This document shows positions 45,286 to 55,821 of a DNA stretch of 64,000 bases, one piece after another. The translations under genes were made by a program, and so were the position numbers. Numbering within the stretch: the stretch's first letter is position 1; each line of letters opens with the position of its first letter. Source of the DNA: a bacterium. GTDB taxonomy: Bacteria; Arandabacterota; Arandabacteria; Arandabacterales; Arandabacteraceae. Below the pieces are notes generated by a model. It did no database searches and had not been told where the DNA came from. It saw only the letters and a list, made by a program, of their open reading frames with translations. The DNA lies in contig JAOZOU010000002.1 in the NCBI GenBank assembly GCA_029933125.1, forward strand, positions 234,281 through 298,280, given 5' to 3'.

Positions 45286-45341
45286 GGACTGAGACGGCGA
45301 CAAAGGGGAACCTAACAGTCTCTGGAACGTTTAACATTGTG

Positions 45342-46328
45342 ATGAAGCGCTGGGGTATATTTGGCTCTTGCATAGCTACCTTTCTCCTTATGACAGCCGA
45401 GCTACAGGCTGCTGTCGTCTTTGACAGAGAGGAAGCTGACATGGGCGTCATCTATCGGGATGAGCCCCAGCAGCTGGTATTCGAATTTGAGAATGATTCC
45501 GACGACACGCTTTACTTCGTTGATATCGAACCGTCGTGCGATTGCACCACAGCCGAGATCATTCCGGAGACAGTACCCCCTCACGCTAAGGGGAAGGTTG
45601 TAGTCTTCTTCGACCCTATGGGCTATGAGAATCGAGGGCATTTCACTGAATTCGTGCGATTGACCACAACCGATATGGAGACCCCTGAGGTCATGCTTAC
45701 CTTTGGAGCGGAGGTAGAGGTGGGTCCTGAGCCGGAGCCTCGTTCGCTGGCGTTCGGTACCTTGTGCAGAGGAGAGAGTGATACACTTCGTCTGACCGTG
45801 CATCTACCGCATGAGAAGCGCATTGACGTTCTCGATGCCTATTCAGATACGGCATGCATAGTTGTGGTCGATGCTGGTGCCGTAAGTGACTTGACTCACG
45901 ACTTCCTTGTCATAGCCACTAATACCGAAAGTTGCGGCAAGTTTGCAGGTTTTGTAACAATCCTGACATCTGACTCCCTGAGGAATGAGGTCAGGGTACC
46001 GGTGAGTGCCAGCTTTGCCGGGCATATACTCGCTGAGCCTGATGTTGTTGCCTTCGGTCCGACATTACCGGGAGCCTATGTAAGACAAAAGGTTAGAGTC
46101 TACGCGGTTGACGGGAGGAAGTTCAGCTTGCCCAAGGCAACCTGCACAATTGAACACCTGAGTCCAGAGATCACAAGACTTGATGATGGCACGTGTGAGA
46201 TAAGGCTTAAGGTCAAAGGGGATGCTCCCCAGGGTAGAGTCTCTGGCAAGCTCATCCTCGAGGCGGACTGTCCTGACGAACCGCCAATTGAGGTTGATAT
46301 CACTGGATATATCCGAAAGGCGAAATGA
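45342..46328 (+). CDS. periplasmic DUF1573 protein with Ig-like repeats
   Basis: A 328-residue exported protein. After a signal peptide (MKRWGIFGSCIATFLLMTAE) come three ASPM/SPD-2/Hydin-like beta domains. The first carries the DUF1573 core: FDREEADMGVIYRDEP, then IEPSCDCTTAEI, with the cysteine pair of this family. The function of DUF1573 proteins is not established; they often stand beside redox or thiol-related exported proteins. A GTG at 45339 adjoins the ATG chosen. The gene overlaps the rhodanese-fold gene by four bases and begins a six-gene run of exported or membrane redox proteins. Confidence 0.83.
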   Translation: MKRWGIFGSCIATFLLMTAELQAAVVFDREEADMGVIYRDEPQQLVFEFENDSDDTLYFVDIEPSCDCTTAEIIPETVPPHAKGKVVVFFDPMGYENRGHFTEFVRLTTTDMETPEVMLTFGAEVEVGPEPEPRSLAFGTLCRGESDTLRLTVHLPHEKRIDVLDAYSDTACIVVVDAGAVSDLTHDFLVIATNTESCGKFAGFVTILTSDSLRNEVRVPVSASFAGHILAEPDVVAFGPTLPGAYVRQKVRVYAVDGRKFSLPKATCTIEHLSPEITRLDDGTCEIRLKVKGDAPQGRVSGKLILEADCPDEPPIEVDITGYIRKAK

Positions 46329-46795
46329 GGAGACATCTGGCGAATACAATTAGAGAAGCGCTCATAGTTACGGTTATCGCCGCTGTGGTTGGCATTGGGG
46401 TCAATGCTATCCGGGACGACGGTATCCCTCTGGTAGCCTCACCTGAAGATTTCAGGGTTTCGACCAAGGCAGAGTTGATGCACATCGAGGACGCCAAGAA
46501 ACTCTTTGATGAAGGTGCTGCTGTCTTTGTCGACGCACGCTCGGCGGAGGTTTTCTCACGCAAGCATATTGAGGGTGCAATCAACATTGAGCCTACTGGC
46601 AATCTTGATGATTTCAGATGGCTTGCAGAGACGGATGCCTACATCATTACCTATGCTTCACGTGAGACTCAGCGACAGGCTGGCGTTGTTGCCGATCGGC
46701 TGATTGATATGGGTTGCAGCAGGGTCTATGTGCTTCGGGGTGGACTTGAGGCATGGCTTGAAGCAGAACTACCAACTGGCGAACAGGAGAACTGA
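46325..46795 (+). CDS. membrane-anchored rhodanese-fold protein lacking the active-site cysteine
   Basis: A 156-residue protein: one N-terminal helix (ALIVTVIAAVVGIGVNAI) then a rhodanese domain (residues ~45-150). FVDARSAEVFSRKHIEGAINI and MGCSRVYVLRGGLEAWLEA are typical. At the active-site loop, where sulphurtransferases have Tyr-Cys-Arg, the sequence is ITYASRETQRQAG, so the sulphur-carrying cysteine is missing. It probably binds a partner or anion rather than transferring sulphur. It overlaps the DUF1573 gene and ends just before the MauE-like gene. Confidence 0.86.
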   Translation: MRRHLANTIREALIVTVIAAVVGIGVNAIRDDGIPLVASPEDFRVSTKAELMHIEDAKKLFDEGAAVFVDARSAEVFSRKHIEGAINIEPTGNLDDFRWLAETDAYIITYASRETQRQAGVVADRLIDMGCSRVYVLRGGLEAWLEAELPTGEQEN

Positions 46796-46796
46796 G

Positions 46797-47252
46797 ATGG
46801 ACCCTATCTCGAAGATCATCTCCAATCGCTTTGTCTTTCTGGCAATTCGGATTGTGCTTGGTGTTGTCTTCATCTGGGCTTCGATCGATAAGATTGCCCA
46901 TCCTGCTGGATTTGCCGAGGCGATTTACAACTACAGAATGCTCCCCTACTGGACGATCAATCTCATGGCGATTATGATGCCCTGGCTTGAGCTTTTCTGT
47001 GGCATCCTCTTGATAGTTGGGGTGCTGTGGCGGGGAAGTGCTTTTATGATAGGGGTGCTACTGGCGGTTTTCATCGTCGCCCTTTCGAGCGCGCTCATTC
47101 GGGGACTTGACATAAGCTGTGGTTGTTTTACGGTTGATGGTGGCCATGGAGTCGCTGTAGACCTACTCGTTCGCGACATACTGATGATCATTGGGGTGGG
47201 GATTCTACTTGCCAATCCAAAGGGACAATTGGTCTTAATAGACCGCGATTGA
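46797..47252 (+). CDS. MauE/DoxX-family membrane protein
   Basis: A 151-residue four-helix membrane protein: VFLAIRIVLGVVFIWASIDKIAHPAGFAE is the DoxX/MauE opening, with a second helix around MPWLELFCGILLIVGVL. A Cys pair, SCGCF, lies in a loop before the last helix; MauE and VKOR-like relatives use such cysteines in thiol oxidation, so disulphide exchange is possible. The ATG at 46797 was chosen by homology at the start; a longer frame from 46704 overlaps the rhodanese gene. The promoter of the selenoprotein gene begins at its stop codon. Confidence 0.85.
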   Translation: MDPISKIISNRFVFLAIRIVLGVVFIWASIDKIAHPAGFAEAIYNYRMLPYWTINLMAIMMPWLELFCGILLIVGVLWRGSAFMIGVLLAVFIVALSSALIRGLDISCGCFTVDGGHGVAVDLLVRDILMIIGVGILLANPKGQLVLIDRD

Positions 47253-47277
47253 CACAATGGGTTAGGCTTGCTACAAT
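47249..47277 (+). promoter_or_regulatory. near-consensus sigma-70 promoter of the selenoprotein gene
   Basis: TTGACA at 47249-47254, 17 bases, then TACAAT at 47272-47277. The transcript would start ~34 bases before the ATG at 47318, whose ribosome site is AGGAGGGG. The selenoprotein and following genes can thus be expressed more strongly than the upstream part of the operon. Confidence 0.8.
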
Positions 47278-47317
47278 AAAGTGCTAAGTGATGTTTTGAT
47301 CGAGCAGGAGGGGAACT

Positions 47318-48682
47318 ATGAGGTGGTTGAGTGTCGGCGTTGTGCTTGCCCTGCTTCTTATCTTACTTCTGGGAACAACGGCCAGTCAAGAGACCAAGCG
47401 CATCATGTTTGCTATAACGGCAAATACTGAGGGCGAGCTCAATCCATGTGGCTGACATGCCAAGGATAAGGGTGGTCTGGCCCGGCGGGCTGGCTTCATT
47501 GATTCGCTAAGAGAAGTTCATGATAACTTAGTCGTTGCGGACGTCGGTGACTTCTTCGGTAATCGTGTACCCAGGCAGGAGAGAACGCGAAGCAAAGTAG
47601 TCGTTGACTACATGCGAACGGTCAAGTATGACGTTGTCACGGTCGGTGAGCGTGAGCTTAACTATGGACTTGACTTTCTCCTCGAGGAGATCAAGCAGGG
47701 TAAGCTTAACGTTGTCTGTGCCAATCTATACAAGGGCAGTGATAGTACACTCCTCTTTAAGCCTTATCTGATTAAGGATGTGGGTGGTACACGCCTTGCT
47801 TTTATCGGGTTGCTGGATAATGACCCTAGGAAGGTTGGCGTGTTTCAGGAGTTGGAAAATCTCTACGTGACCAATTATGTTGAAGCTGCCAAGAAGTATC
47901 TTCCTGAGCTTGAGTCAAAAGCAGACCTTGTTGTTGCCTTGGCTCACATTGGTCTTGCCAATGCCCGCGAGCTTGCCAAGCAGGTGCCTGACCTGGATGT
48001 CATCCTTGTAGGTCATGGTGGTGATCGCACCTCAATGCCTCAGAAGGTTGGCGAGACCATCATCATGAAACCTGGAAGCAAGAGCAGTTCAATCGGAACT
48101 ATGGTTCTCGCTCTTGACGACGCTAACAACATAATAGCATTCGATGGTTCATCTCATACGCTCAAGAAGAAAGGCAGGACTAACAAGAAAGTTGATCGCT
48201 TTGTCACTGCCTGTGAAGAGCGCGAGAAACAGCGTGAGCGTCTGCTTGCCAAACGCAAGTACAAGTTCCCATCTATTCCAAAAAGACCTGAGGTTCTTGC
48301 AGCAAATGGTTATCTGGGCTGGGAAACCTGTAAGATCTGCCATCCCAAGATCTACGAGCGATGGCTTGAACTTCCTCATGCTAAGGCATTTGCAACCTTG
48401 GCTAAGGATGATAAGTGGAATGATCCTGCCTGCCTGCCATGTCATACGACTGGCTATGAGATAGAGGCTAAGAAGGATTCCACAGATGTAAGACCTGAGA
48501 TGTGGAATGTTCAGTGCGAGGCCTGCCATGGCATGGGAACAAAGCATCGCCGGGATGGCTCGATGCGCCTGGTGCCAGAGAGTGTTTGCCGAAGATGCCA
48601 TACGCCAAAGTGGAGTCCCAACTGGAACTATGAAGAAGCGCTCAAGAAGATTGATCACGGCAAGGACGAGGTCACAGATTGA
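47318..48682 (+). CDS. selenocysteine-containing phosphoesterase-like tetrahaem cytochrome c
   Basis: A 454-residue exported protein read through an in-frame TGA (47453-47455, residue 46). A signal helix (residues 4-22) precedes a 5'-nucleotidase/metallophosphatase-like domain (residues ~28-280). The TGA sits in NPCG-U-HAKDKGGLARRAG; relatives have CGC before GGLARR, so a cysteine is replaced by selenocysteine. The C-terminal ~130 residues carry four haem-c motifs, CKICH, CLPCH, CEACH and CRRCH. Without readthrough only a 45-residue peptide would be made, yet 409 well-conserved codons follow. The usual phosphatase Asp-x-His opening is altered (ITANTEGEL), so phosphatase activity is doubtful. 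I infer a periplasmic selenium-dependent oxidoreductase feeding or draining haems. Confidence 0.88.
47456..47494 (+). promoter_or_regulatory. probable SECIS element of the selenoprotein gene
   Basis: Immediately after the TGA, GGTCT (47474-47478) begins 18 bases downstream, exactly where GGUCU forms the SelB-binding apical loop of the E. coli fdhF SECIS. GGG (47470-47472) can pair with CCC (47481-47483) around it, and GCC near 47459 with GGC near 47492. The stem is short and bulged, but the loop sequence and position match well. Confidence 0.65.
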
Positions 48683-48789: not shown

Positions 48790-48830
48790 CTATCTTGCAT
48801 AGGAATCGGGTGATTCCTCCGTGAGTGAGC

Positions 48831-49649
48831 ATGAAGCGAAGACTATGGCAAACAGCATCTACAATACTCAATAACGCCTTCCTGCCTGGCTACATAAACA
48901 TCACTATCTATCAGGGTTTTCTCAAAGGCTACTGCACTCCAACCCTAAATTGTTACGCATGTCCTGGTGCCTTTACCTCATGTCCGATTGGAACACTTCA
49001 GCATTTCGCAGGTCGGCATCAATTTCCTTTCTTCCTTTTAGGATTCCTGGGGCTTGTGGGAGCAGGAGTGGGAAGGATGGCATGTGGCTGGCTGTGCCCC
49101 TTCGGATTTCTCCAGGACATGATCAAGAAGATCTCGCGCAGGGTTGTTGGTCTTCCTCACTGGATGACCTATCTCAAGTATGTTTCACTGGTTGGTCTTG
49201 TCATCTTGTTGCCGTGGTTTCTCATGGATCCCTGGTTCTCAAAACTCTGTCCCGCCGGTGGAGTTGAAGGGGCGATCCCCTGGGCGGCAGCAGGCAGTTC
49301 GCGTTCACCTGATTTAGCAGGTCTGGATGTTCGATCGATGATAGGCTGGCTTTTCTGGACGAAGATGACAATTCTGGCAGCATTTCTTGGAGCAATGGTT
49401 GTCATCAAGCGACCTTTCTGCAGAACCTTCTGCCCGCTCGGCGCGATTTTTTCACTTTTCAATCGCATAAGCCTGGTCAGGATGCATTACGACAAGACCA
49501 AGTGTGACAACTGCGGTCTGTGCAATCGGCTTTGTCCTGTTGACCTCGATGTCGTAAGGCAACTCGATTCACCTGAGTGTATCAAGTGCCTTGAATGCAC
49601 TAAGTGTCCCAGACACGCGATTACGGTGACTGTAGGCTATGGTTCCTAA
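48831..49649 (+). CDS. NapH/MauN-like polyferredoxin membrane protein
   Basis: A 272-residue inner-membrane protein with about five helices. Two paired cysteine motifs, ACGWLCPFGFLQD and CRTFCPLGAIF, are those of the NapH/NosR/CcoG family, and an extra CTPTLNCYACPG near the N terminus marks the subgroup found with multihaem cytochromes. The C terminus holds two [4Fe-4S] motifs, CDNCGLCNRLCP and CIKCLECTKCP. It would carry electrons between the quinone pool or cytoplasmic side and periplasmic cytochromes, here most likely the selenocysteine cytochrome. The ATG at 48831 is preferred to the GTG at 48825. Confidence 0.92.
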   Translation: MKRRLWQTASTILNNAFLPGYINITIYQGFLKGYCTPTLNCYACPGAFTSCPIGTLQHFAGRHQFPFFLLGFLGLVGAGVGRMACGWLCPFGFLQDMIKKISRRVVGLPHWMTYLKYVSLVGLVILLPWFLMDPWFSKLCPAGGVEGAIPWAAAGSSRSPDLAGLDVRSMIGWLFWTKMTILAAFLGAMVVIKRPFCRTFCPLGAIFSLFNRISLVRMHYDKTKCDNCGLCNRLCPVDLDVVRQLDSPECIKCLECTKCPRHAITVTVGYGS

Positions 49650-50453: not shown

Positions 50454-50482
50454 TTGACGCTGTCTTTCGACATTGTTAGACT
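50454..50482 (+). promoter_or_regulatory. sigma-70-type promoter of the glucan-binding locus
   Basis: TTGACG at 50454-50459 and TAGACT at 50477-50482 are 17 bases apart. Transcription would start near 50489, ~30 bases before the ATG at 50518. It directly follows the sirtuin terminator, and I see no other promoter before the window end, so one long operon is possible. Confidence 0.65.
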
Positions 50483-50517
50483 CCATGCAAGGAGGATACC
50501 TTCAAGGGAGTACATTG

Positions 50518-53500
50518 ATGAGGCGATATGCATTTGTTCTTTTTGCCATTCTGGTCGCTGGCTATGCGGGGGCAACCACCTATAATTCACCCCAGATCGA
50601 CGGTACGGTTAGTGTGAGTCCCAGTGATTGGGACGAGGATGAATTCCTGCTTGACGATGCCAACGAGGATTCGCGATACCACGAGGCTGATATCGACGAT
50701 ATCTATGTCACCTGGGACAGTACCAATTTCTATATCGGCGTAAAGACCAACCTCGCTCCTGGAGGCTACGGCAATGGCTATGTGGTTTTCATCGACACCG
50801 ATGCGCATCTTGCCTCGATAACAGGAGCAACCGACTTCACCAATGCCAACTTCTACCCACGCCACATAACCTTCTCAGGCATGGGAGCTGACATAGTAAT
50901 CGGTGGATGGTCCTTCCAGATGCCATTCGACGTAAGATACTGCAGTGATCCGACCAACGCTCAGTCTATTCCCGATTTCGTTTCAGCTTTTAATCCAGGG
51001 ATGCGAAGTTTCGAGGTGATGATTCCATGGTCAAGAATCTATCCAGATGCCGAGGGTGTTGTTGACGAAGGCGCAGCAATGAGAATCGTAGCGGTGAGTG
51101 TTGGAAATGACAATTCGGGTGCATATGACGCTGCTCCCAACTCAAGCCATGATGCTGATGGTGATGGTGTGCCTGATGAGAATGATACCGATCTTCACTG
51201 GGATGACTACACCGACCTCGATAGATTTCTCGAAATCACGATCGACGTTGACAATGACGGTATTCCTGATGAGAATTTTCCACCAAGCGGTTACATTGCG
51301 GGTACGATCTCCTTTGATGATCCTCACGATACCCAAACAGTTGCCACAATTGATGCATACCTGAGTGGCGATCTGGTCGCGAGTGTGACAGCACCTCCGG
51401 GTGGGGGGGCTTATAGACTTGAGCGGCTCGTTGATGGAAGCTATGACCTTGAGGTACATGCGTTCTCTTACAGGGCGCAGCGCCGCGAAGGAATTGTGAT
51501 CGATGAGGGCGTCGGGGTCGATAGTGTGGACTTCATTCTGAATAAGGTGCCTGGAGCTGTCATCGGCACGGTCACAGTTGAAGGTCCTCAAGCCGACGTT
51601 ACGGTCTATACGGTCGATGTGTCAACAGGGGCGATCAGTGGGGATGGGGTGCATAAGATCGAGGGTGGCAGTGGCAGCTTTGAGATACTGGCAATTGAGG
51701 ACGGTATTCATCATCTTATCGCCGAAGCAAGGGGCTATGTTAGGTTTGATTCGCTCATTACAATCGAGGCAGATACCGCTTGGGTTGACATACAGCTGAG
51801 AAAGGCGATTGCAACCAGGTATGTTTTCCTGGATTCAGCAGGAATAGCCATTAAGGCTGTGAGGATCTCCCGAAGTCTTCCTTCAGATGGTGGAACGGCT
51901 GGTTTCTCTGATTTTGCCGACTTACGATTTGAACCCCGTGATGACTACGATAACGCAGCTATCTTCGATGAGAGTGCAATCGATAGCGTGAAGGTTAGCG
52001 CAACCCTGCTTGACGTAACCGTGTTGCCAAGGGGCCATGTAGTCTTCGCCGATACCTCAGGGGAGAGCCTCGCTGACAGCCTCATTCTTCGTTCGATGTT
52101 TACCGATGGCATCGGTCGCTTCTTTGTAAGTGATGACAGTGTCGAGGTTTTGCGAGTCGAGGTTTTGCGAGGCGAGGTTCGTGGAGCCATCGAAGTCGGT
52201 GTTGGAGAGCTAAAGCCCGTCCGCGTTAGGCTGACTGCTGATACTACTGAAATAGCAGTGGGTGGGAGGGAGAAGATCGAGGTTGAGGTTCAGCTACTCG
52301 ATGCTAGCGGTAATCCAGCTCCGACGCCTGATGTAGCCATAAGACTCCTTGCAGTCGAGGGCAATCCCATCTTTGAACCCGAGCTCGATGTGACAAATGC
52401 CAACGGACTCTTCATAAGCTATCTCTCTGGTTTTGAGGCAGGTAGAGTTAGGTTTACAGCTTCAGTTGAACCCGGTGAATATGCGGGACTGCCAGCCGAT
52501 ACAGTTGAGGTTTACTTAAGACCCGGGCATCCTGACCGCATCAGATCAGAGCTTTCTCCAAGAACGGTTAAGCTCGGTGGTACAGCAATTGCTACGTTCC
52601 AGGTTGTGGATTCCTATGGGAATGCTGTGAAGCTCGAGAACCTCCGAATCGATCTTAGTGCTACACCTGCCGAATTGATCTCCTCGATCATGACCCCCAT
52701 CTTTACCGACACCTCCGGCTTTGCAGCTTCACAGGTAGCTGTCGATGACCGCTATGGCATCGTGAGAATCGAGCCCGCAGCGGATTATCCCGTTGACGCC
52801 CTTGATCTTGCGATTGATTCGAGGCTTGTTTCCACTGATGAGACTGCACCTGAAAGTGATACCGCCCATAACTCGAACCCTGATGTTGACCTTACGACAA
52901 TGTTTGCCTGGCTTGAACCAAATACAATGGTTGTCATGCTTGATTTCTCAAGCAGCTGGGACGGCGTCCACCTAATGGTCGCAATTGAGGTCAATGGGGA
53001 TGCTGATGGTGGTAACCAGGATCCTTTTCAGTTCCCGATCTATTATCGGCACCAGCTTAAACCGGACTATGTCTTCACCTACAAGTACAGCTCCAATGAT
53101 TACGCAGATCTGCGTAAATGGGAGGGAAATCGCTGGAAGTTCTGGCAGCTTGTTAATCGTGATTGGACCATAGATGAGTCTGACCCCGACAAGAATGCAG
53201 TCGGGTTGGTGGAAAAGAGCGATACGCAGGTGTTCTTCAAATTCCCACTGGCTGCAATAGGAGATCTTTCCCCTGGCGACACCTTAAGAATCCAGGCTTA
53301 TGTGACTCAGGAAGCTTTTGGCACCAAGTACAATGCTCTCGACTCCAATCCTCAGGATGCGACTCACGATATGGAACCAGATGAAGGAGAATGGTGGGAG
53401 ACGGCTACTAGACCGATGAATCTCTCAGGCTATGCGGAATACGTTTTCCCTTTACCAGGTAAAGCACCTGGAATTCGATCGGCCCAGGCTATGCCTGCAG

Positions 53501-55821
53501 TTGCTTCGACCAATGATAAGGTCATCTTCAGTGTTGAGGTCGTTGACTCAGGTGGCGGCATAGGAGATGTGCTCGTCGATCTGAGCCCTGTTGGAGGGGA
53601 ATCTTTTACAAGACTGTATGATGATGGAACAAATGGTGATGAGACTGCAGGTGACCGGGTCTATTCTGTAGAATTCAAGATACCGGATGTCGTCTCTCAG
53701 GGGATTCAAGTCATCAAATTCACAGCCAAGGATAGTCTCAATGTTTCCGAGGCAACCGCGGTGACCACCCTTGAAATAATAAACCCACCAGAAGTGATCA
53801 TATCAGTGGTGGACTCCATTGGTGATGACCACGGACCCAACATGACCGATCCATCTGGCAATCCTGTTGATGGACTGTATTACATCTATCCGACAAATGG
53901 AGTCTTTTCGCCTGGTGTCTTCGATATCGAGCAGGTTGATTTCATGATAGTTGGAGGCTTTCTGGTCATAAGGATCCATGTTGGTGACGTCCCCTCATCT
54001 GATGCTGTTGGATGGAACGCACCTTATCCAGATGCAACCTGCCTCAATCCCAACAAGGCAGATCTCAACCTGCAGAAGATTGACATTTACATCGATAGCA
54101 AGGAGGGCTCAGGTGCAACAGCTGGCCTGCCCTTCAGATACGTTGATATCGCTCGCAGTGACGCCTGGGAATATGCGGTTGCCATCGAAGGCTGGTGGCG
54201 TGGGTTGATTGTCTCAAACGGTGAAAATTCAATTTCGTTCTGGACAATCCTTCGGCAGACCAACCAGATCAACTTTTGCACAGATTACATCGAGGATTTC
54301 ATCGATGTGTGGATCGGACTTTCGGTCTTGGGTGATCCGACCCCTGAGGAAATAAAGAAGTGGGATTTCATAATAACCATGGCAAGTCACGATGGCAATA
54401 GTGACGATCAGAATCTGGGTGGCATTCGCTGGGTGAACAATGCTACCAGCGAGTGGCAGTTCGGAAATGGTCGTGATGGAGAAGCCGGGAGGGAGAGGGA
54501 TGCCAACATAATAGATGTGGTAGCTGTGCCAGGTGAGGGCAAGCAGCCGGGCAGGACCCAGGAGGAGATGCTCAATTACCTGGCGCCTGAAGCGATAAGG
54601 AGATTTGACAATGGGCTCACCGCTTGTATACTGGAAGCAACCTCCTCGCTCGATATCTCGCCTCCTGTGATTGAACCTTTCCCGACAAATGGTTTTGCCC
54701 ATGCTGTCTGGTATATCCTTGAACATGCCCCTGTTTCGTTCTGGACACTAATAACCGATGAGAACATGGTTGAAGAGGCAGAATTCAGGTGGCGACCGCT
54801 TGGGAGCTCCCAGTGGAACAGCACTGAGATGGTCAAGATAAGCGGGGACTACTGGATTGCTGATATCGATCCTGATGAGTTCCAGTCCGCCATCCAACCC
54901 ACTGAGCTTGTTGATGGTACACCAGCCCGACCCTTCGAGGCCAGGATAAGAGCTGTTGATGGAGATGGTAATGAAAGCCAAACTCCCCTTATTACATTCG
55001 CTGTTCCCGACGTACCCTTGCAGTATGATACAAGAGGAGGCCTCCGACCGGGCCAGAGTGTAATCTTCTATGATGGCACTATCGTTAGCCTGCCTGAGGA
55101 GATGTCGCCTGCCTCTTCAGACAGTTTCTCAGTCACCCTGATCCCACTGTCTGAGACTGGTCCGGAGGCGATCGATCTCACAAATCTGAGATCGACAATG
55201 ACCTATCTGGGAGTGGCAAGGGATATAGTGGTTACCTGCTGGAAAGATGACTTTGAAGAGTCCCTTGCCCAGCTTGGACAGCCTGTTTCTCTATCACTCC
55301 ACTATCCCACCTACCTCGCTGACCTGGATGAAAACAAGATCGGCATCTTCCGGTTCAATGAAGTTACCGACAGGTGGATTTCGATCTTTGGTTCGGTCAA
55401 TCGATTCGGCAATGCGGTAACCGCTGAAGTGGATGCGGTCGGAAGGTACGGACTTTTCGCCGACAATCGGCTTTCCTACGACACATCGGAGGGTCTTTCA
55501 GGAGTAAGAGCCGAGCCCAATCCCTTCTCGCCAAATGGTGATGGCGTTTATGATGAGACGCATATCAGTTTCTTCCTTTCTCGTGAAGCCGATTGGGTGA
55601 CAATTGAGATCTTTGACATCTCCGGCGAGGATGTTCGTACTATAAGATGGCAACGAGGGCTTACTTCGGTCGGCAGGAATGCTTTTGACATTGTCTGGGA
55701 TGGTCGGGATGACAACGGTGAGATTGTCCCGTATGGGATTTACATTTTGCGCGTCGAGGTACGATTCAAGGTTGCACCCTACAATGAACGGCAGAATATT
55801 GCAGTGGCGGTCATAAAGTAG
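50518..55821 (+). CDS. very large secreted multidomain glucan-associated surface protein
   Basis: A 1767-residue exported protein. After the signal peptide come a CBM9/DOMON-like sandwich (residues ~25-210), two calcium-type repeats (DADGDGVPDEN and DVDNDGIPDEN), carboxypeptidase-regulatory-like domains (~258-450) and bacterial Ig-like domains (~565-765). A second CBM9-like domain (~780-975) and an Ig domain follow. Next is a module (~1100-1375) resembling the C-terminal domain of glucodextranase and amylopullulanase, with VDGLYYIYPTNGVFSPGVFD. The last ~110 residues are a FlgD-type Ig domain (PNPFSPNGDGVYDETHISF, GIYILRVEV) like those on type IX substrates. No glycosidase domain is visible, so binding or scaffolding is more likely than hydrolysis. 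The ATG at 50518 follows AAGGGAG. Confidence 0.82.
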   Translation: MRRYAFVLFAILVAGYAGATTYNSPQIDGTVSVSPSDWDEDEFLLDDANEDSRYHEADIDDIYVTWDSTNFYIGVKTNLAPGGYGNGYVVFIDTDAHLASITGATDFTNANFYPRHITFSGMGADIVIGGWSFQMPFDVRYCSDPTNAQSIPDFVSAFNPGMRSFEVMIPWSRIYPDAEGVVDEGAAMRIVAVSVGNDNSGAYDAAPNSSHDADGDGVPDENDTDLHWDDYTDLDRFLEITIDVDNDGIPDENFPPSGYIAGTISFDDPHDTQTVATIDAYLSGDLVASVTAPPGGGAYRLERLVDGSYDLEVHAFSYRAQRREGIVIDEGVGVDSVDFILNKVPGAVIGTVTVEGPQADVTVYTVDVSTGAISGDGVHKIEGGSGSFEILAIEDGIHHLIAEARGYVRFDSLITIEADTAWVDIQLRKAIATRYVFLDSAGIAIKAVRISRSLPSDGGTAGFSDFADLRFEPRDDYDNAAIFDESAIDSVKVSATLLDVTVLPRGHVVFADTSGESLADSLILRSMFTDGIGRFFVSDDSVEVLRVEVLRGEVRGAIEVGVGELKPVRVRLTADTTEIAVGGREKIEVEVQLLDASGNPAPTPDVAIRLLAVEGNPIFEPELDVTNANGLFISYLSGFEAGRVRFTASVEPGEYAGLPADTVEVYLRPGHPDRIRSELSPRTVKLGGTAIATFQVVDSYGNAVKLENLRIDLSATPAELISSIMTPIFTDTSGFAASQVAVDDRYGIVRIEPAADYPVDALDLAIDSRLVSTDETAPESDTAHNSNPDVDLTTMFAWLEPNTMVVMLDFSSSWDGVHLMVAIEVNGDADGGNQDPFQFPIYYRHQLKPDYVFTYKYSSNDYADLRKWEGNRWKFWQLVNRDWTIDESDPDKNAVGLVEKSDTQVFFKFPLAAIGDLSPGDTLRIQAYVTQEAFGTKYNALDSNPQDATHDMEPDEGEWWETATRPMNLSGYAEYVFPLPGKAPGIRSAQAMPAVASTNDKVIFSVEVVDSGGGIGDVLVDLSPVGGESFTRLYDDGTNGDETAGDRVYSVEFKIPDVVSQGIQVIKFTAKDSLNVSEATAVTTLEIINPPEVIISVVDSIGDDHGPNMTDPSGNPVDGLYYIYPTNGVFSPGVFDIEQVDFMIVGGFLVIRIHVGDVPSSDAVGWNAPYPDATCLNPNKADLNLQKIDIYIDSKEGSGATAGLPFRYVDIARSDAWEYAVAIEGWWRGLIVSNGENSISFWTILRQTNQINFCTDYIEDFIDVWIGLSVLGDPTPEEIKKWDFIITMASHDGNSDDQNLGGIRWVNNATSEWQFGNGRDGEAGRERDANIIDVVAVPGEGKQPGRTQEEMLNYLAPEAIRRFDNGLTACILEATSSLDISPPVIEPFPTNGFAHAVWYILEHAPVSFWTLITDENMVEEAEFRWRPLGSSQWNSTEMVKISGDYWIADIDPDEFQSAIQPTELVDGTPARPFEARIRAVDGDGNESQTPLITFAVPDVPLQYDTRGGLRPGQSVIFYDGTIVSLPEEMSPASSDSFSVTLIPLSETGPEAIDLTNLRSTMTYLGVARDIVVTCWKDDFEESLAQLGQPVSLSLHYPTYLADLDENKIGIFRFNEVTDRWISIFGSVNRFGNAVTAEVDAVGRYGLFADNRLSYDTSEGLSGVRAEPNPFSPNGDGVYDETHISFFLSREADWVTIEIFDISGEDVRTIRWQRGLTSVGRNAFDIVWDGRDDNGEIVPYGIYILRVEVRFKVAPYNERQNIAVAVIK

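Follow-up and report, generated by a model that had tools for sequence, protein, structure and literature searches.

COG0737 UshA-like proteins with a CxU motif figured in a 2008 count made on the Global Ocean Sampling data (Zhang and Gladyshev, PMC2398784), and a 2026 review, citing that paper, enters the corresponding NCBIfam family NF041198, the 'UshA-like (seleno)protein', as CxU (PMC13188914). A further family, NF049981 (UshA-like (seleno)protein family 2), has its selenocysteine in a CxxU motif (PMC13188914). The combination of selenocysteine with several c-type haems is also on record: the same review gives ExtKL (NF040886) as a multihaem c-type selenoprotein (PMC13188914), and the PDB entries 9wt8 and 9wt9 are named 'Multiheme cytochrome c selenoprotein (MccSep)'.

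The gene considered here lies in a stretch of 64,000 nucleotides, called the window below, from a member of the Arandabacterota. Its whole product scores 279.7 bits against NF041198, for a curated cut-off of 275 and with a C replacing the U; the PCGU motif of the family is present at residues 43-46, and the haem region aligns to model positions ~346-519. Domain order, PCGU motif and Sec/Cys column are those of the family and nothing essential is different, the members from other phyla having ~20-35% identity to the window protein, whose own particularity among them is a SECIS hairpin in the downstream register described below. Judged by this profile match, the gene is an orthologue of a catalogued selenoprotein family and not a new one, and its product is almost certainly an NF041198 selenoprotein. 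A reading of the sequence alone had called it, with its haem fusion, new-looking; this view has to be given up, the family being already curated, with its CxU motif in both publications, and the haem region being part of the NF041198 model. The 'undescribed chemistry' that it proposed holds in that no substrate is known, but not as regards selenocysteine in a multihaem cytochrome, for which ExtKL and MccSep are precedents.

The other described systems share only a part of this architecture. NF049981 has in common a UshA-like region with a selenocysteine nearby, but at 62 bits the window protein stays well under the cut-off of 140. The similarity to MccSep is weak and limited to the haem part (E ~3e-4), the score against ExtKL is 10.8 bits for a cut-off of 250, and neither gives a match to the UshA-like domain. 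The cytochrome c554 of Nitrosomonas (PF13435; PDB 1bvb) has a similar tetrahaem domain, without the phosphoesterase-like fusion and without selenocysteine. The UshA and CD73 5'-nucleotidases and SoxB share the fold and sequence of the N-terminal part, but the window protein has lost their two-metal site and catalytic histidine, has gained the CGU motif and carries a haem domain where the C-terminal nucleotide-binding domain would stand; its score against SoxB TIGR04486 is 80.5 bits, the curated cut-off being 550.

Table 1. Features of the selenoprotein locus, in positions of the window.
Feature	Positions	Strand	Basis and remarks
DUF1573 protein, lineage-specific neighbour	45339..46328	+	Pfam; order same in relatives
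Rhodanese-domain membrane-anchored protein	46325..46795	+	Pfam; alignment: usual catalytic Cys position not Cys
MauE/DoxX-like membrane protein	46704..47252	+	Pfam; true start probably downstream of mechanical ORF start
Promoter-like TTGACA-17-TACAAT, extended -10 TG	47249..47277	+	Consensus scan, 11/12 matches; consensus match only
Ribosome-binding site AGGAGGGG	47306..47313	+	Sequence, 5' of ATG
Predicted UshA-like PCGU selenoprotein gene	47318..48682	+	454 residues, Sec at 46; read-through translation and NCBIfam NF041198
Probable signal peptide, residues 1-24	47318..47389	+	Hydrophobic N-terminus; predicted from sequence
UshA/5'-nucleotidase-like domain, ~residues 30-268, dismantled metal site	47405..48121	+	PDB profile, Foldseek, ligand columns
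C44-G45-Sec46 candidate redox motif	47447..47455	+	Homologue codons and alignment
Alternative weak hairpin GGGU-GGUCUG-GCCC	47470..47483	+	4 bp; includes GGTCT 47474-47478
Probable SECIS hairpin CUGGCCC/GGGCUGG, loop GGC 47484-47486	47477..47493	+	7 bp, 28 nt after UGA
Tetrahaem c-type domain, CxxCH 48329-48343, 48431-48445, 48515-48529, 48587-48601	48329..48601	+	Pfam, sequence
NapH-like membrane 4Fe-4S protein	48825..49649	+	Pfam and NCBIfam; conserved order

Translation agrees with the sequence-only reading on the limits of the open frame and on its internal TGA (Table 1): the frame begins with the ATG at 47318, its codon 46 is the TGA at 47453-47455, inside PCG-U-H, and the terminal TGA occupies 48680-48682. 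The '409 more codons' counted after the internal TGA are 408 sense codons and the stop; with equal codon use assumed, an open run of 408 codons has a chance of ~3e-9. The promoter and the ribosome site reported ahead of the frame were found again, the former as a strong sigma-70-like match with 11 of the 12 consensus positions, as were the four CxxCH motifs after the TGA, at residues 338-342, 372-376, 400-404 and 424-428.

The assignment of selenocysteine to TGA codon 46 is strongly supported by genomic and comparative evidence. The source genome (3.2 Mb, ~97% complete) contains SelA, a SelB scoring above cut-off, a tRNA-Sec (selC) of 76.6 bits with a UCA anticodon and two SelD genes, so that the machinery whose presence was to be checked is there in all its parts. 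An orthologue with exactly one in-frame TGA is found in 8/8 phylum genomes examined, representing six genera, and the best family members in a sample of 386 bacterial genomes have one in-frame TGA or none. The codon at the Sec column of 57 distinct homologues, drawn from one non-exhaustive search, is TGA in 37, distant phyla included, and TGC or TGT in the other 20; it is never one for Trp or Gly, although an extraction that looked for a C-G or T-G pair followed by Cys or Sec may have overlooked a rare different residue. The proposed check for Cys in the homologues at this column is thereby answered. Relative to the nearest relative, dN/dS is ~0.05 upstream of the TGA and 0.03 for codons 47-310, values of strong purifying selection, and the TGA is unchanged when synonymous sites are near saturation.

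If the TGA were a real stop, due to a nonsense mutation, an assembly error or gene decay, the product would be the ORF starting at the ATG 47612, or nothing. A mechanical ORF of 356 aa does start there, but a product begun there would lack part of the fold and also the signal peptide, on which haem attachment depends; the retention of the TGA throughout the phylum sample and in distant phyla, together with the purifying selection acting on both sides of it at near-saturated synonymous divergence, makes this explanation highly improbable. The insertion of another residue such as Trp or Gly, by an alternative code or a near-cognate tRNA, is still harder to credit: it has nothing beyond the open frame to recommend it, and is opposed by the set formed by tRNA-Sec(UCA), SelA, SelB and SelD, by the Cys codons of the relatives and by the fact that the same gene ends with TGA. 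Neither a broken gene nor a reassigned code fits, because the TGA persists despite near-saturated synonymous sites, the column holds only Sec or Cys, and the sel genes are present. The preference of the sequence-only reading for selenocysteine over a broken gene thus stands.

Other observations concern selenium genes in these genomes. One SelD gene (L029, G000:C171:209908-210825), directly upstream of selC, has its own in-frame TGA in SSCAGU; the other (L028, G000:C76:20148-21071) has no in-frame stop and is part of an open frame of 741 aa that may be a fusion. In a genome of another phylum (L141, G203:C229), the PCGU gene occurs in two tandem copies, each with one in-frame TGA. A selenocysteine formate dehydrogenase was looked for and not found.

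The rules for bacterial SECIS elements are a loop of 3-9 nt, a stem of 4-16 bp and a G in the first two loop positions, at 16-37 nt from the UGA and with an MFE of at most -7.5 (PMC13188914). Two mutually exclusive hairpins can form after codon 46 (47470..47483 and 47477..47493), and the downstream one, with its GGC loop, 7 bp, distance of 28 nt and energy of -9.0 kcal/mol, lies within all these bounds. The synonymous-codon identity of the phylum orthologues, with a mean of 0.44, peaks at 0.89 at codons 54-62, directly 3' of the TGA, and the best nine of 383 nine-codon windows all start at codons 48-56; on this comparative evidence, the peak marks an RNA element. The downstream stem has 7-8 bp in 7/7 phylum members with usable sequence, and its mean of 7.14 bp compares with 2.25±0.98 for a synonymous-codon null (0/2000, n=7), a result which is partly post hoc, the register having been picked after viewing the predicted folds. 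The GGTCT hairpin has 0-4 bp across the phylum, which is no better than the synonymous-codon null when small loop shifts are allowed and marginal in a stricter version of it.

As candidate SECIS of the phylum, the GGTCT hairpin was rejected, its stem not rising above the synonymous null. The sequence-only reading was right about the distance of 18 nt from the TGA to GGTCT, but the element that this phylum conserves is the downstream hairpin, whose GGC or GGA loop stands ~10 nt 3' of GGTCT, and it is in other lineages that the GGTCT type is conserved. The SECIS element of the window gene would thus probably be the 7-bp hairpin with the GGC loop, and not the one containing GGTCT.

Of the Sec members in the wider family, 14 have a hairpin of the GGTCT type, 21 the downstream one (the seven of the phylum included) and two neither; pairing-preserving changes occur on both strands of the stem in both types. 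The best stem of the Sec members outside the phylum has 7.00 bp against 3.02±0.34 for the null, whereas the Cys members, which show neither hairpin, do not differ from theirs (2.85 bp against 2.42±0.36). This behaviour of the Cys members and the synonymous profile, which presupposes no structure, argue against a hairpin arising by accident. Both registers form clusters on the protein tree, which requires a minimum of three or four changes of label. The mean fold energy separates Sec from Cys members weakly, a single-sequence fold of 48 nt counted from the TGA does no better than shuffles (z 0.86), and Rfam, scanned with the whole window and with 47200-47700, returned nothing relevant and no match to a bacterial SECIS.

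The phosphoesterase-like fold and the tetrahaem c-type domain, both announced by the sequence-only reading, are confirmed by profile matches to UshA/5'-nucleotidase and to Cytochrome_C554, respectively. For the former, the family profile finds PDB 5'-nucleotidases with E down to 6e-42, and the Foldseek search with the predicted N-terminal fold matches 3ive/3ivd, in agreement with the sequence evidence; the AlphaFold model itself, with four sequences as input, is poor (mean pLDDT 49.6). The two-metal site of UshA consists of D-x-H, D, N-H, H and H-x-H. At these columns, assigned by reading motifs in the alignment, the window protein has N-x-E, D, E-R, H and H-x-G, and so does not keep the two-metal site. 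The column of the catalytic His contains no His in 45 aligned members and an Arg in the window protein; the His of DxH and the Asn ligand are lost in nearly all 45, and the other Asp and His ligands vary from member to member. On the other hand, C44 is found in 44/45 and G45 in 45/45 of these members, position 46 holds Cys or Sec in every case, and the CGU/CGC motif is kept even in members without the remaining metal ligands.

Could the protein still be a hydrolase, 5'-nucleotidase-like or a SoxB-like thiosulfohydrolase, in which selenocysteine would act as a nucleophile or bind the metal, while the haems would do no more than drain electrons from the product? The fold is clearly UshA/SoxB-like and three metal-site residues (D78, H210 and H233) survive in the window protein, but the absence of the catalytic His in the whole alignment, the general loss of the Asn ligand and of the DxH His, and the persistence of CGU/CGC where the remaining ligands are gone make this an unlikely proposal. 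The conservation of CGU/CGC in a dismantled phosphoesterase site designates a haem-wired Cys-Sec redox centre as the likeliest function, and the simplest reading of the alignment is that the fold has lost hydrolysis and gained such a centre.

The C-terminal domain matches Pfam Cytochrome_C554 with an E-value of 1.5e-13, and a cytochrome c assembly protein was found in the genome. Since the four haem motifs are in the same chain as the Cys-Sec centre, an exchange of electrons between them is suggested. Four c-type haem motifs are present in 43 of the 54 complete family members; seven complete Cys members and four complete Sec members have no haem domain, so haem would be inessential to the core function of the family. 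Judging from the haem-less members, this centre can operate with a different electron partner.

The order DUF1573-rhodanese-MauE-PCGU-NapH-like is kept in the three relatives whose contigs are long enough, with Sir2 following the NapH-like gene in two of them, an arrangement suggestive of redox chemistry on sulfur or thiols. The selenoprotein might accordingly be imagined as the electron carrier or thiol-disulfide partner of the MauE-like protein (through its CGC), the rhodanese and the DUF1573 protein, all acting as one periplasmic sulfur-relay module; these last two neighbours do give hits, though below cut-off, to other (seleno)protein models, that of rhodanese-related (seleno)proteins for the former and OS_HP2 for the latter (40.9 bits, cut-off 100). 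However, neighbours of the DUF1573, rhodanese and MauE types are absent at 28 loci of other phyla and in the same-class genome L132, clustering of the neighbouring ORFs across phyla gave no conserved neighbours, and the rhodanese of the window lacks Cys at its usual position, so that we regard such a module as a doubtful alternative. As they are not conserved beyond the lineage, the neighbours tell little of the substrate.

These neighbours have some features of their own. The rhodanese-domain protein and its closest relative read ITYASRETQ at the usual catalytic position, where ICYAS or ICYAC stands in other members of the phylum. The DUF1573 protein has Cys in SCDCT and no in-frame TGA. A conserved CGC in the MauE/DoxX-like protein (DISCGCF) echoes the CGU of the selenoprotein. 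On the 3' side of the cluster, 50473-55821 encodes a predicted exported protein of 1782 aa, whose C-terminus resembles a FlgD-type or gliding/T9SS-type sorting region and whose alignments with L130 and L134 are broken into rearranged pieces.

The model we propose combines a recoded UGA with a converted phosphoesterase. UGA 46 would be decoded as selenocysteine by the SelA, SelB, SelC and SelD of the genome, guided by the hairpin 28 nt downstream, and the product, with its predicted signal sequence, would be exported. Four c-type haems would be loaded onto its C-terminal half, and the N-terminal half would represent a former two-metal phosphoesterase from which the metal and catalytic residues have largely gone. 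The Cys-Gly-Sec pair, for which nearly all relatives have either Cys-Gly-Sec or Cys-Gly-Cys, would be the likely new active site: Cys44/Sec46 would react in the periplasm with a thiol, a sulfane-sulfur compound or a related substrate and would exchange electrons with the haems. To this account as a whole, an NF041198 selenoprotein with hairpin-guided selenocysteine and a periplasmic Cys-Sec redox function involving haems, we assign a probability of about 0.88. The redox mechanism linking Cys44/Sec46 to the haems, taken separately, has in our opinion even odds, and a substrate of the sulfur type is improbable enough to be named only tentatively, a low weight given because the neighbourhood is absent elsewhere. 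That a single family joins two mutually exclusive SECIS registers to a dead phosphoesterase turned into a haem-wired Cys-Sec redox enzyme of undescribed chemistry is conceivable, at somewhat less than even odds.

In conclusion, our observations point to a genuine selenoprotein in a bacterial phylum of which little is known and extend a family which was catalogued but functionally blank. What evolution has kept in this family is the CGU/CGC pair and not the phosphoesterase site. The fusion of selenocysteine to a tetrahaem electron wire would make the redox activity directly assayable, and the presence of two SECIS registers in otherwise aligned genes offers a natural comparison of the recognition by SelB.
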